Part shown: piece by piece, positions 2,834-64,000 of the stretch
Layout: the number at the start of each line of letters is the position of its first letter
How positions within the stretch are numbered: the stretch's first letter is position 1
Assembly: GCA_029570385.1 (NCBI GenBank)
Contig: JAKPXD010000010.1
Location: 36,991-100,990, forward strand
Source: a bacterium
GTDB taxonomy: Bacteria > Patescibacteriota > Patescibacteriia > Patescibacteriales > Patescibacteriaceae
Length of the DNA: 64,000 nt
Direction: 5' to 3'
The notes under the pieces: model-generated
What the model was told of the DNA's origin: nothing
The model's database searches: none
The model's input: the letters and a program-made list of their open reading frames with translations, nothing else
Program-made: the position numbers and the translations under genes

Positions 2834-3679
2834 ATGCCAGCAGGTTTAGGCAAGGGTTTGGGTTCATTGTTAGCGGCTAATCCATTAGTTGAACCGATGG
2901 ACAGTGAACGCATCGTCAATTTAGCGCCGGATTTGATTCAAGTTAATCGCCAGCAGCCGCGGCACGATTTTAATCAAGAAAGTTTGCAAGAGCTAGCTGA
3001 TTCTATTAAAGAATGCGGTATTTTGCAGCCGTTGATTGTGGCTAAAACAACGGCCGGCTATGAATTGATTGCCGGCGAACGGCGTCTGCGAGCTGCCAAA
3101 TTAATCGGTTTAAAAACAGTGCCAGCGATGGTCCGCTCGGTTGATGAACAACAGAAATTAGCCTTGGCTTTAGTGGAAAATATTCAGCGAGAGAATTTAA
3201 GTCCGTTAGAAGAGGCGACGGCTTATCGACGGTTATTAGACGAATTTCAATTAACTCAAGACGAGTTGGCTAGCCGAGTGGGTAAACCGCGTTCAACTAT
3301 TACTAATTTACTGCGTTTACTTAATTTGCCGGTTTCGGCCCAACAAGCGCTGCGTTCAGGCCAAATTAATTTAGGCCAGGCGAAAGTTTTGGCGGGAGTT
3401 GATCCGGCTAAGCAAGATCAGGCTTTGCGTGAAATGACCGCTAAACCGATTACGGTGGCTGACTCCGTTAAAGTAGCGCGCATTTTTAATTCTCGGACTC
3501 AATCTAAGACAACACCGACAGCGAAGGATGTATATAATGATAAAGGTAAAGAATTCTTATTACGGGAATTTTTTCAAACTAAGGTTAAAATTACGCGCCA
3601 AGCCCGTGGTGGCCAAATAATTATTAGCTTTGATAGCGATGACCAATTGTCAGCGCTTATGAACAAGATTCGCCGCTAA
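2834..3679 (+). CDS. parB: Chromosome partitioning protein ParB/Spo0J
   Basis: Centromere-binding CTPase partner of ParA. It starts with the typical MPAGLGKGLGSLL. The ParB/Srx CTP-binding core follows, with GERRLRAA at 81-88 and NIQREN at 116-121. An HTH sits at about 141-161 (TQDELASRVGKPRSTI), and a C-terminal dimerisation segment closes the protein. The length of 281 aa is normal. It is co-transcribed with parA and ends just before a convergent minus-strand operon. Confidence 0.95.
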   Translation: MPAGLGKGLGSLLAANPLVEPMDSERIVNLAPDLIQVNRQQPRHDFNQESLQELADSIKECGILQPLIVAKTTAGYELIAGERRLRAAKLIGLKTVPAMVRSVDEQQKLALALVENIQRENLSPLEEATAYRRLLDEFQLTQDELASRVGKPRSTITNLLRLLNLPVSAQQALRSGQINLGQAKVLAGVDPAKQDQALREMTAKPITVADSVKVARIFNSRTQSKTTPTAKDVYNDKGKEFLLREFFQTKVKITRQARGGQIIISFDSDDQLSALMNKIRR

Positions 3680-21249: not shown

Positions 21250-21988
21250 GCGGATAACTCTTGATTTATGTCTGCCGGTTTATAATGAGGCAGCTATCTT
21301 AGCGAGTAATGTCCAGAGAATTGTAGACTTTATTAGTAGCAATCAATTAGCCGTTGACTGTCGTCTTATTATTTTAGTAAATGGTTCAACTGATCAGTCA
21401 CTTCAGATTGCTCAAGAATTAAGTCAGCGCTGGCCAAACCTTGTTAGTTATAAAAATTATGAAGTGGCTAGTCGCGGGTCAGCTTTATTGGCTTACGCTG
21501 ATATTAGTCCGGCTGATTGGTGGGGTTTTATGGATATTGATTTGGCAGTTGATTTGGCTAGTCTACAGCAATTTTTTAAGTTGATGGTTGATCAGTCAGC
21601 CGATGTTTTGTTAGCTTCTAGATTAATGCCCCAAAGTTCTTATAAGCACAAACTGACCAGAAAAATTATATCAGTAGTTTATAATCAGTTAGCTCGTTTT
21701 GCTTTAAAAACTTCAGTTAAAGATCATCAATGTGGTTTTAAATTCATTAGCCAATCATGGTGGAAAACTCTCCGACCATATTTACAAGATTCTCGTTGGT
21801 TTTTAGATACAGAAATTATTGCCTGGACGACCAAATTAGGTGGTAGAATAGTTGAAATACCGGTTGATTGGGTTAACAATCGCTATCATATTCGGCCGAC
21901 TAAAATTAAATTAATTCGCGATATAAGCAATTTTTTAATTAATCTATATTGTTTAAGAAAGCGCCTGCGCGCTCATCGCTCATCATAA
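21236..21988 (+). CDS. Family 2 glycosyltransferase, polyprenyl-phosphate sugar synthase-like, 250 aa
   Basis: GT-A domain of the DPM1/ALG5 type: CLPVYNEAAILASNV, ILVNGSTDQS, the GFMDIDLAVDLASL segment carrying the DxD, LLASRLMP and KDHQCGFKFIS. Such enzymes make polyprenyl-phosphate sugars at the cytoplasmic face. It overlaps the end of the preceding GT-C-like gene, fitting a donor-maker and user pair. No membrane helices are appended. Confidence 0.82.
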   Translation: MSGNKRITLDLCLPVYNEAAILASNVQRIVDFISSNQLAVDCRLIILVNGSTDQSLQIAQELSQRWPNLVSYKNYEVASRGSALLAYADISPADWWGFMDIDLAVDLASLQQFFKLMVDQSADVLLASRLMPQSSYKHKLTRKIISVVYNQLARFALKTSVKDHQCGFKFISQSWWKTLRPYLQDSRWFLDTEIIAWTTKLGGRIVEIPVDWVNNRYHIRPTKIKLIRDISNFLINLYCLRKRLRAHRSS

Positions 21989-62974: not shown

Positions 62975-63253
62975 ATGTCTATGACAAAGGCTCAATTGGT
63001 TGATGGTTTAGCTAAGAATTGCAACCTTAGCAAGAAAGCCGTCAACGATGTCTTGAACGAAATGTCCACTATGGCCTACAAAGAGGTCAAAAAGAATGGT
63101 GAATTTATCGTTCCAGGTATTGGTAAATTGGTTAAGGTTCAGCGCAAAGCGCGCATGGGCCGCAACCCAGCGACTGGCGCTCAGATTAAGATCCCGGCCA
63201 AGACCGTGGTCAAGTTCCGTGTCGCCAAGGCAGCTAAAGACGCGGTGGCTTAG
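62975..63253 (+). CDS. hup: HU-family DNA-binding protein
   Basis: Nucleoid-associated protein. The 92-aa HU fold has TKAQLVDGLAKNCNLSKKAV, then the beta-arm GIGKLVKVQRKARMGRNPATG with the Pro at its tip, and a basic end KIPAKTVVKFRVAKAAKDAV. Two start ATGs lie 6 bp apart (62975 and 62981). Strong promoter and bidirectional terminator make it monocistronic. Confidence 0.95.
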   Translation: MSMTKAQLVDGLAKNCNLSKKAVNDVLNEMSTMAYKEVKKNGEFIVPGIGKLVKVQRKARMGRNPATGAQIKIPAKTVVKFRVAKAAKDAVA

Positions 63254-63324: not shown

Positions 63325-63633
63325 TTATTCAACCCAGCCGCTCACATATTGCCCTAGACCGGCTTTGGTTAATTTGTTGTGCAATTTAGTACGCGAACGC
63401 AAAAAGGCGAGTAGCGAGCCCAGGTCAATTAAGTAGCGATTACCGCGAATGCGGTAGGTAATCAGCTGGCCGCCAATGGCTCGGCGAATGGTTTTACTTT
63501 GGACGCCGCCCAGCTTAGCCGCTTCCGACACCGATACCCATAGCGGATTGACTATAGTGTGGTTAGTCATGGCCGGCGTGGTGACCGGACTGGCTTTGAG
63601 AGTATGATCGGTGGCGGCAGTAATTCTCGGCAT
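63325..63633 (-). CDS. Excisionase-like helix-turn-helix DNA-binding protein, 102 aa
   Basis: A small putative regulator with one winged-HTH-like domain (about residues 31-80): WVSVSEAAKLGGVQSKTIRR, AIGGQLITYRIRGNRYLIDL, SLLAFLR, matching the HTH_17/excisionase pattern (S-x-x-E-A-A, R-x-x-x-x-Y, L-x-x-[FL]L). The N-terminal 28 residues are Thr-rich and probably disordered, and a second ATG exists at residue 22. Directly upstream are four inverted repeats (63636-63827), likely its operators, so autoregulation is probable. Confidence 0.72.
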   Translation of the reverse strand: MPRITAATDHTLKASPVTTPAMTNHTIVNPLWVSVSEAAKLGGVQSKTIRRAIGGQLITYRIRGNRYLIDLGSLLAFLRSRTKLHNKLTKAGLGQYVSGWVE

Positions 63634-63635
63634 AT

Positions 63636-63827
63636 AGTCTAGGAATAGTTAGACTTTAATCAAGGGTGGTTGGCGGTGTTTAGTTATTTTTCGACTTTAG
63701 TCTAGATATACTTAGACTAAAGATAAGAAATCAGCCATTATTGCAGAATTTAAGTCTAGGTTTATGTAGACTTAAATAAAGAACATTTTTGCTTTTTTGT
63801 CAAATAAAGTCTAGTCTAATCTGGACA
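63636..63827. repeat. Array of four AGTCTA-N8-TAGACT inverted repeats
   Basis: Perfect 6-bp inverted repeats with exactly 8-bp spacers occur at 63636-63655, 63699-63718 and 63753-63772. A fourth degenerate copy is at 63808-63827 (AGTCTA then TGGACA). Arms extend to 9-10 bp in the second and third copies. The first ends 2 bp before the HTH ATG. Centre spacings are 63, 54 and 55 bp. Confidence 0.8.
63775..63803 (-). promoter_or_regulatory. Putative promoter of the HTH gene, flanked by repeats
   Basis: The minus strand reads TTGACA (complement of 63798-63803), 17 bp, TTTATT (complement of 63775-63780). It lies exactly between the third (63753-63772) and fourth (63808-63827) inverted repeats. 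Confidence 0.45.
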
Positions 63828-63860
63828 AAACATTGGATTTTCTATTGTAGACCACTGGCC

Positions 63861-63908: not shown

Positions 63909-64000
63909 TGTCGGCTTTATGATTAAATAAATAACACTATTTGACTGTAACACTTATCCATTTTTATCGTATATATAATCGTAGCCGAACATGACGAAAT

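Follow-up and report, generated by a model that had tools for sequence, protein, structure and literature searches.

A palindrome array upstream of a winged helix-turn-helix gene in a Patescibacteria genome: probable operators of a proposed origin-binding regulator

The window analyzed here, a 64,000-nucleotide stretch of a Patescibacteriota genome (assembly GCA_029570385.1, contig JAKPXD010000010.1; genome G000 below), carries an array of four palindromes at positions 63636 to 63827, immediately upstream of hth, a gene encoding a 102-amino-acid winged helix-turn-helix (wHTH) protein. Judging from sequence comparisons with relatives, the array probably consists of operators of this adjacent gene. 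Its product would regulate its own gene, bind the replication origin, and, likely, couple the expression of a sigma factor and surface proteins to replication. The reading is built on arrays found upstream of hth in relatives, on palindrome letters that follow the predicted recognition helix of the protein, and on further sites that lie beside DnaA boxes near the origin of relatives.

The palindrome array and the hth protein

The motif AGTCTA-N8-TAGACT occurs in three perfect copies, starting at 63636, 63699, and 63753, and in a two-mismatch copy at 63808, all where the original prediction had put them. The half-site is longer than six bases, (A/T)AGTC(T/C)A, and the four palindromes occupy 63635 to 63656, 63698 to 63719, 63752 to 63773, and 63807 to 63828, with start-to-start spacings of 63, 54, and 55 bp. 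Allowing up to two mismatches, the window holds seven matches, compared to a mean of 1.0 (largest 4) in shuffled sequences. In the 654,490-bp assembly (89.65% complete, 31 contigs, with the window stopping at a contig end), perfect copies are confined to these three, with zero for a reversed-pattern control; as anticipated, the motif is not scattered in the genome. Of the nine relaxed matches of G000, four form the array, one precedes a SpoIID gene, and at least three of the remaining four are inside genes. One isolated relaxed match, ATGTCCAGAGAATTGTAGACTT, is found at 21309 to 21330 of the window.

The repeats are kept in the sister genome G001, which also has four copies at spacings of 63, 54, and 55 bp. 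In the alignment of the two genomes, the palindrome arms form conserved islands: copy 1 has an aligned counterpart, copy 2 has one mismatch through a changed arm base, copy 3 is perfect, and copy 4 has two mismatches. The arm of copy 4 had been called degenerate. It does have two mismatches, but its variant sequence TGGACAA is identical in G001 and recurs elsewhere in the genus.

The gene hth (63325 to 63633, minus strand) lies directly beside copy 1, the core of which ends 2 bp ahead of the start codon; the original prediction had this copy touch the start-codon region. A TTGACA word on the minus strand at 63798 to 63803, a possible -35 element of hth, lies between copies 4 and 3; the earlier claim that it sits exactly in the middle does not hold, since 4 bp separate it from copy 4 but 25 bp from the core of copy 3. 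A promoter scan did not report TTGACA at 63798 to 63803, and the word reads TAGACA in G001. With copy 1 right at the start codon and TTGACA enclosed by copies 3 and 4, we infer that the protein, a candidate binder of the array as a dimer, would repress hth.

The product of hth matches the Pfam family HTH_17 (PF12728) at 28.6 bits, above the gathering cutoff of 27. An AlphaFold2 monomer model (mean predicted local distance difference test score, 83.8) places the predicted recognition helix at residues 46 to 54 and gives the C terminus two short helices only, at residues 82 to 91 and 94 to 100. A sequence profile search of the PDB returned one weak match (4j2n, E = 0.68). The hth profile was matched by 229 of 380 genomes of the class (201 of 318 among good-quality genomes), with one match per carrier genome save for G206, which has two. 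Named carriers are mostly Falkow-, Magasanik-, Buchanan-, and Uhrbacteria, a class within Patescibacteria that we take to be ABY1.

Among relatives, we used the best 80 of 122 hth loci from a scan of a genome collection. With up to one mismatch, AGTCYA-Nk-TRGACT yielded 94 sites in 40 of the 80 loci at a spacer of 8, none at spacers of 4 to 7 or 9 to 12, four at 13, and one at 14; the reversed control gave 0 at a spacer of 8. Other lineages have the same layout with different letters (TTGTATA-N8-TATACAA, TTGTCTA-N8-TAGACAA, and TAGTCAA-N8-TTGACTA). When lineage-specific letters were taken into account, 70 of the 80 loci had at least one N8 site and 54 had at least two. The distances between copies vary in relatives (62, 44, 66, 61, 76, 58, and more). 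The spacings given in the original prediction are correct, and they recur in G001, but their closeness to whole helical turns is no general rule. With arrays in 70 of 80 loci and arm letters that follow the predicted recognition helix, the autoregulation proposed in that prediction appears very likely.

Arm letters follow residue 47

The predicted recognition helix includes K47 to R51, whose codons lie at 63481 to 63495 (minus strand); this assignment draws on the sequence, the model, and covariation between residue 47 and arm base 5. Lysine and arginine prefer G, and glutamine prefers A. The covariation search fixed arm bases 3, 4, and 7 and placed no constraint on base 5. In a first set, arm base 5 was C 178 times and T twice for K47, C 16 times and T twice for R47, A 106 times, C four times, G three times, and T twice for Q47, and A and C once each for H47. 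A second set, which shares some genomes with the first, gave C 78 and A 4 for K47, C 48 for R47, A 79, G 3, and C 2 for Q47, A 5 and C 3 for H47, and T 3 and G 1 for M47, the last being a single locus. After the sets were merged and duplicates were removed, 139 loci remained, of which 26 were dropped because they lacked a site, gave a tie, or had something other than K, R, or Q at position 47. In 111 of the remaining 113, K47 or R47 went with GTC and Q47 with GTA. The two loci that break the rule both carry R51Q.

Homologs with histidine at this position are mixed. Three of them (L200, L228, and L234) have palindromes with one GTCTA and one GTATA arm, and a fourth (L235) has GTATA in both arms.

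According to the portion of PMC5859096 consulted, the recognition helix of BldC reads bases with Lys26 and Arg30. From the four-residue spacing and the fold, we infer that K47 and R51 would be the equivalents of these residues.

Sites at the origin region of relatives

Sites also occur away from hth. Across 58 genomes of the order, the strict pattern had 293 matches, with 54 genomes having a match and 0 to 13 sites per genome, versus 6 matches for the reversed control. We inspected 20 stretches from 11 genomes of the order, 26 stretches from the family, and 10 from lineages in which residue 47 is glutamine (Q47 lineages). Sites distant from hth recur in two places. The first is after tRNA-Cys, either before dksA-like and lspA genes or between a 3D-like gene and yidC where these two converge. 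The second is after tRNA-Arg or tRNA-Ala, before a (trxB)-rnhB-methyltransferase-YraN group. As exceptions, L299 has a site away from both places, and L377, from a Q47 lineage, has a site inside a gene; in the window's genus (g1), sites lie by M23 and SpoIID genes and inside genes. G001 and G002 retain the tRNA-Cys and tRNA-Ala sites. Pfam searches of single examples back the names dksA, lspA, trxA, trxB-type flavoprotein, rnhB, dnaN, dnaA, yidC, and YraN; the 3D protein scored 21 bits against a cutoff of 23.8, and one relative had no Pfam match.

These places are close to the origin. In G398, dnaN, dnaA, yidD, and yidC lie between the two site clusters, and in G010 the GC skew changes sign at the origin-side sites and again near 410 kb. 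The dnaA and yidC genes and the skew flip are the expected marks of an origin region. The hth array of G010 is itself about 598 kb from the origin on a chromosome of about 858 kb. Contig G010:C1 repeats one set of three sites at both of its ends, 858,159 bp apart, which is probably an untrimmed circular overlap.

The origin-side sites are accompanied by TTATNCACA, which we take to be the DnaA-box consensus. In the order, there were 19 boxes in 8,685 bp near sites versus 1 in 73,181 bp elsewhere; in the family, 22 in 7,264 bp versus 8 in 107,747 bp; and in the Q47 lineages, 11 in 3,345 bp versus 9 in 75,608 bp. The family test covered 15 loci, five of them from genus g1. A separate check took in L068 to L081 as well as L085, which duplicates L084 at the opposite end of its contig. 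A box lay within 150 bp of a site distant from hth in 12 of 20 loci of the order, 9 of 10 of the family, and 8 of 10 of the Q47 lineages. Circular shifts reached the observed box counts in 0 of 2,000 trials for each of the three groups, and random intergenic placement did so in 0, 0, and 1 of 2,000 for the order, the family without g1, and the Q47 lineages.

Some sites and boxes keep a fixed arrangement. Among 69 site-box pairs from 30 loci with K47 or R47, gaps of 11 bp (eight pairs), 31 bp (eight), and 15 bp (seven) dominate, and site and box overlap in none. A composite of site, 11 bp, box, 11 bp, and box, with up to one mismatch per box, was found in nine loci from nine genomes among 42 loci scanned; three rows of the gap scan (L303, L090, and L091) were left uncounted as end-of-sequence artifacts with empty words. 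L273, L277, and L278 have the same offsets. In the Q47 lineages, the arms have changed with the protein and the sites are still found at boxes; this linkage of protein, arm letters, and box position is the strongest argument that the protein binds the origin. On these sequence patterns, it is likely that the same small protein acts at the origin of relatives. The original prediction had offered a partition or nucleoprotein site as an option. Its nucleoprotein side agrees with sites that mark DnaA-box clusters near the origin of relatives, but its partition side is not supported, with 12 of the 13 genomes of the family carrying a ParB apart from it.

The divergent sigma operon and other neighbors

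We searched the hth loci for a sigma factor, DUF5667, a surface protein, and HU. In all 72 loci with enough flank, the gene divergent from hth encodes an extracytoplasmic function (ECF) sigma factor, and wherever the flank sufficed, DUF5667 accompanied it in 65 of 66 loci and a giant surface-like protein in all 57. In G001, an ECF-type sigma gene (L012:5519-6142) lies beyond the array, and genes for a DUF5667 protein and for a very large, surface-like protein with no Pfam match come after it. The G001 sigma protein contains Sigma70 regions 2 and 4 (PF04542, 39.8 bits; PF08281, 55.5 bits). Two giant surface-like proteins at the sigma operon's end, of 1,260 and 1,306 amino acids (L092:3894-7676 and L093:3226-7146, both minus strand), had no Pfam match, and the word DUF5667 was not found in the open-access papers searched. 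In the window, the plus-strand segment from 63991 to 64000 probably holds the start codon of the sigma gene, as judged from synteny with G001 and the 72 loci of relatives. The contig end cuts the gene here, which is why the divergent operon was missed in the original prediction.

An ECF-type promoter for the divergent gene, TGTAAC-N16-CGT, lies at 63946 to 63970 (plus strand), 45 bp ahead of the probable start codon, and has the familiar -35/-10 form of ECF promoters. In a region reaching from 150 bp ahead of the called sigma start to 90 bp past it, TGTAA(C/T)-N16-CG(A/T) was found in 54 of 73 relatives, versus a shuffled mean of 0.20. In 30 loci it stands 34 bp ahead of the called start, which suggests a leaderless message. 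It is likely that this promoter, often leaderless, is driven by the sigma factor itself.

The convergent neighbor of hth, at 62975 to 63253 (plus strand), encodes an HU-family protein (PF00216, 87.2 bits). The original prediction had made something of this adjacency; it is real in the window, but of the 74 relatives whose flank was long enough, just 17 have HU within 1.1 kb of hth. One bacterial hth/sigma/DUF5667 locus (L140, SUPR01000179.1) is on a contig filed under a genome of Helarchaeota, an Asgard archaeon, likely through a binning error.

What the system might do

A dimer of the hth protein on each palindrome would repress its own promoter. The protein may also act on the divergent operon of ECF sigma factor, DUF5667 protein, and surface protein; the promoter of the sigma gene is some 120 bp past copy 4, and since both genes share this intergenic region, the regulator could turn sigma expression up or down from there. 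In relatives, dimers seated 11 bp from a box at the origin, and on either side of a box pair, could promote or hinder the assembly of DnaA. Envelope expression and initiation would then both depend on the level of one protein, in the way known from oriC-binding master regulators. Control of replication initiation by the hth protein is plausible, though tentative. More tentative still is a generalization to a class-wide, single-copy cell-cycle regulator in Patescibacteria of the ABY1 type, which would set its own level via the array, switch the surface operon, and bind a composite with DnaA boxes at a two-part dnaA-yidC origin.

If this holds, a streamlined cell would couple chromosome initiation to surface building through one small protein. 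The wider question is the timing of replication and surface building in Patescibacteria, whose genomes are small and whose regulators are few. Among the matches listed in the open-access literature, titles and the beginnings of abstracts mentioned no such regulator from Patescibacteria or the Candidate Phyla Radiation. What the system offers for in vitro work, with no need for culturing, is a single protein with a sharp operator and a specificity residue, together with a composite DnaA element.

Several observations weigh against the reading, some of them in the window's own genus. There, a strict box was near a site in 0 of 5 loci and in none of L068 to L081, and no TTATCCACA of G000, G001, or G002 was near any relaxed site, as judged from genome-wide positions; the boxes at sites of G001 and G002 have one mismatch and were picked out by eye only. 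A role of the window's protein at the origin is therefore drawn from relatives. Origin-side sites were not found in G000, an assembly that is 89.65% complete. Elsewhere, boxes were absent from 8 of the 20 order loci with sites, from L263 to L266, which include the single sites G406:C6 (L265) and G372:C3 (L263) checked separately from the 20 order stretches, and the Q47 set has no dominant gap of 11, 31, or 15 bp, with two sites having a box at 31 to 32 bp. DnaA boxes near hth arrays are few (5 in 17,848 bp). Some relaxed sites lie inside genes (valS, lepB, and recQ/folD, named by eye), and such sites were not taken as targets.

The correspondence between array and gene is also imperfect. Ten of the 80 hth loci have no site before hth, as do 16 of 90 in the second set, 8 of these 16 with R47, and G301 has hth and no strict site. 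Conversely, the family genomes G002, G005, and G006, in 50 to 80 contigs, carry sites without a detected hth. (G003 and G004 have neither, and G012 has one relaxed match.) A letter-free count of palindromes fails to single out the 8-bp spacer, so that claim rests on the motif-based test. Finally, on the sigma tree the residue changes four times and the arm three times; with about three to four changes and few independent lineages, the match between residue and arm is tidy in chemical terms yet statistically thin, and a sign test of the covariation was without power.

Alternative explanations

The most serious alternative, which we regard as unlikely, is that the hth protein is a regulator of the usual kind, controlling its own gene and the sigma/surface operon, that the origin copies are operators of neighboring housekeeping and cell-wall genes (dksA-lspA, trxB-rnhB, 3D-like, M23, and SpoIID), and that boxes are near by origin location alone. 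It would account for origin-side sites in promoter-like gaps, such as those about 81 to 110 bp before trxB, which are paired 46 to 48 bp apart in 7 of 8 such loci, and for the sites of genus g1 that neighbor M23 and SpoIID genes and have no strict box. However, the offsets of 11 bp to DnaA boxes are fixed in nine loci, the box association exceeds that of intergenic placement, and sites are retained between the convergent yidC and 3D-like genes.

We consider it improbable that the sites organize or anchor the chromosome, with the hth protein marking the origin for segregation in the manner of RacA or of a partition system. Of the 13 family genomes, 12 carry a separate ParB, and parS-like words occur in several of these loci; strict sites number only 0 to 13 per genome of the order; and the hth array of G010 is far from the origin (about 598 kb on about 858 kb). 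Partition by ParB and parS was set aside because ParB is present separately. The motif is unlike the canonical parS consensus, and GTTTCACGTGAAAC, with up to one mismatch, was found in 2 of 13 genomes. The ParB-family gene of the window genome is at 2912 to 3415 of the window (G000:C7:39902-40405), and TGTTTCACGTGAAACA, with up to two mismatches, had no match in the window. Words of the parS-like forms GTTNCA(C/T)GTGNAAC or GTTNCAC(A/G)TGNAAC were seen about 65 to 690 bp from origin-side sites in L013, L300, L302, L378, and L381, and G001 has a parS-like word at its tRNA-Cys and tRNA-Ala sites.

That hth encodes an excisionase-like directionality factor of a mobile element is highly improbable. 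The original prediction had already found phage excision less obvious, and this judgment is supported: the excisionase model TIGR01764 reached 20.2 bits against a cutoff of 28.8, all carrier genomes but one have a single copy, and the neighbors are fixed (integrases were not searched for). In contrast to phage Xis and RdfS, hth has a conserved sigma neighbor and is present once per genome, and its sites have a sharp consensus, whereas RdfS is reported to show none. The idea that the repeats are RNA hairpins, either terminators or processing sites, would suit inverted repeats that often follow tRNA genes, but it is scarcely credible, because palindromes that pair a C arm with a T arm are found either way round relative to hth (26 unique sites in one orientation and 19 in the other), where one of the two orientations would give a C-A mismatch in RNA, and because the letters follow a protein residue and the arrays lie upstream of hth.

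Comparison with known systems

In the portions of PMC4285127 and PMC3411110 consulted, CtrA, Spo0A, AdpA, and MtrA are transcription regulators of cell cycle or development with sites among or over DnaA boxes, and in the former, known oriC-binding regulators each use a single protein to act on genes as well as on the origin. The hth sites resemble theirs in lying in or beside DnaA-box clusters in relatives from the order, the family, and the Q47 lineages, and they differ in the window's own genus, where G000, G001, and G002 have no strict box near a site. MtrA boxes are described as dispersed between DnaA boxes, as the hth sites are; in contrast, the sites of Spo0A, CtrA, and AdpA overlap DnaA boxes in the portion of PMC4285127 consulted, whereas hth sites flank them. 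In the model, moreover, the hth protein is a lone MerR-like wHTH without receiver or effector domain, and its binding is predicted. We suggest that it may work like an oriC-binding master regulator, which is a likeness and not membership.

Classical MerR proteins, in the consulted part of PMC5859096, are wHTH proteins that bind palindromic sites as symmetric dimers, much as predicted for the hth protein; as far as a monomer model can show, the latter has neither the long coiled coil nor the sensor domain of MerR. BldC of Streptomyces is there described as binding direct repeats head to tail, and a variable number of such repeats marks its family, whereas the hth sites are inverted with an 8-bp spacer. 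Finally, the divergent ECF-type sigma factor of relatives (PF04542/PF08281) with its TGTAAC-N16-CGT promoter recalls autoregulated ECF sigma operons; what sets the system apart is that the sigma factor has a wHTH regulator and also a DUF5667 protein as partners.

Non-coding elements near the origin-side sites

Between tRNA-Cys and the dksA-like gene, L285, L287, L291, L295, L298, and L301 contain several hundred look-alike non-coding bases. By eye, these stretches have a promoter-like pair, TTGAC(A/T/C)-N17-TATATT, and a GC-rich, terminator-like end, and they possibly encode an unnamed small RNA. Rfam searches of five of the six loci (all but L287) found tRNA only, and searches of 12 and of 8 loci likewise returned nothing but tRNAs. 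An element (C/T)TAATATTAG(C) was also noted near origin-side sites. In a count that covered L284 to L303, ten family loci, L013, and L037, it occurred 22 times in 15,305 bp near these sites versus 39 times in 158,936 bp elsewhere.
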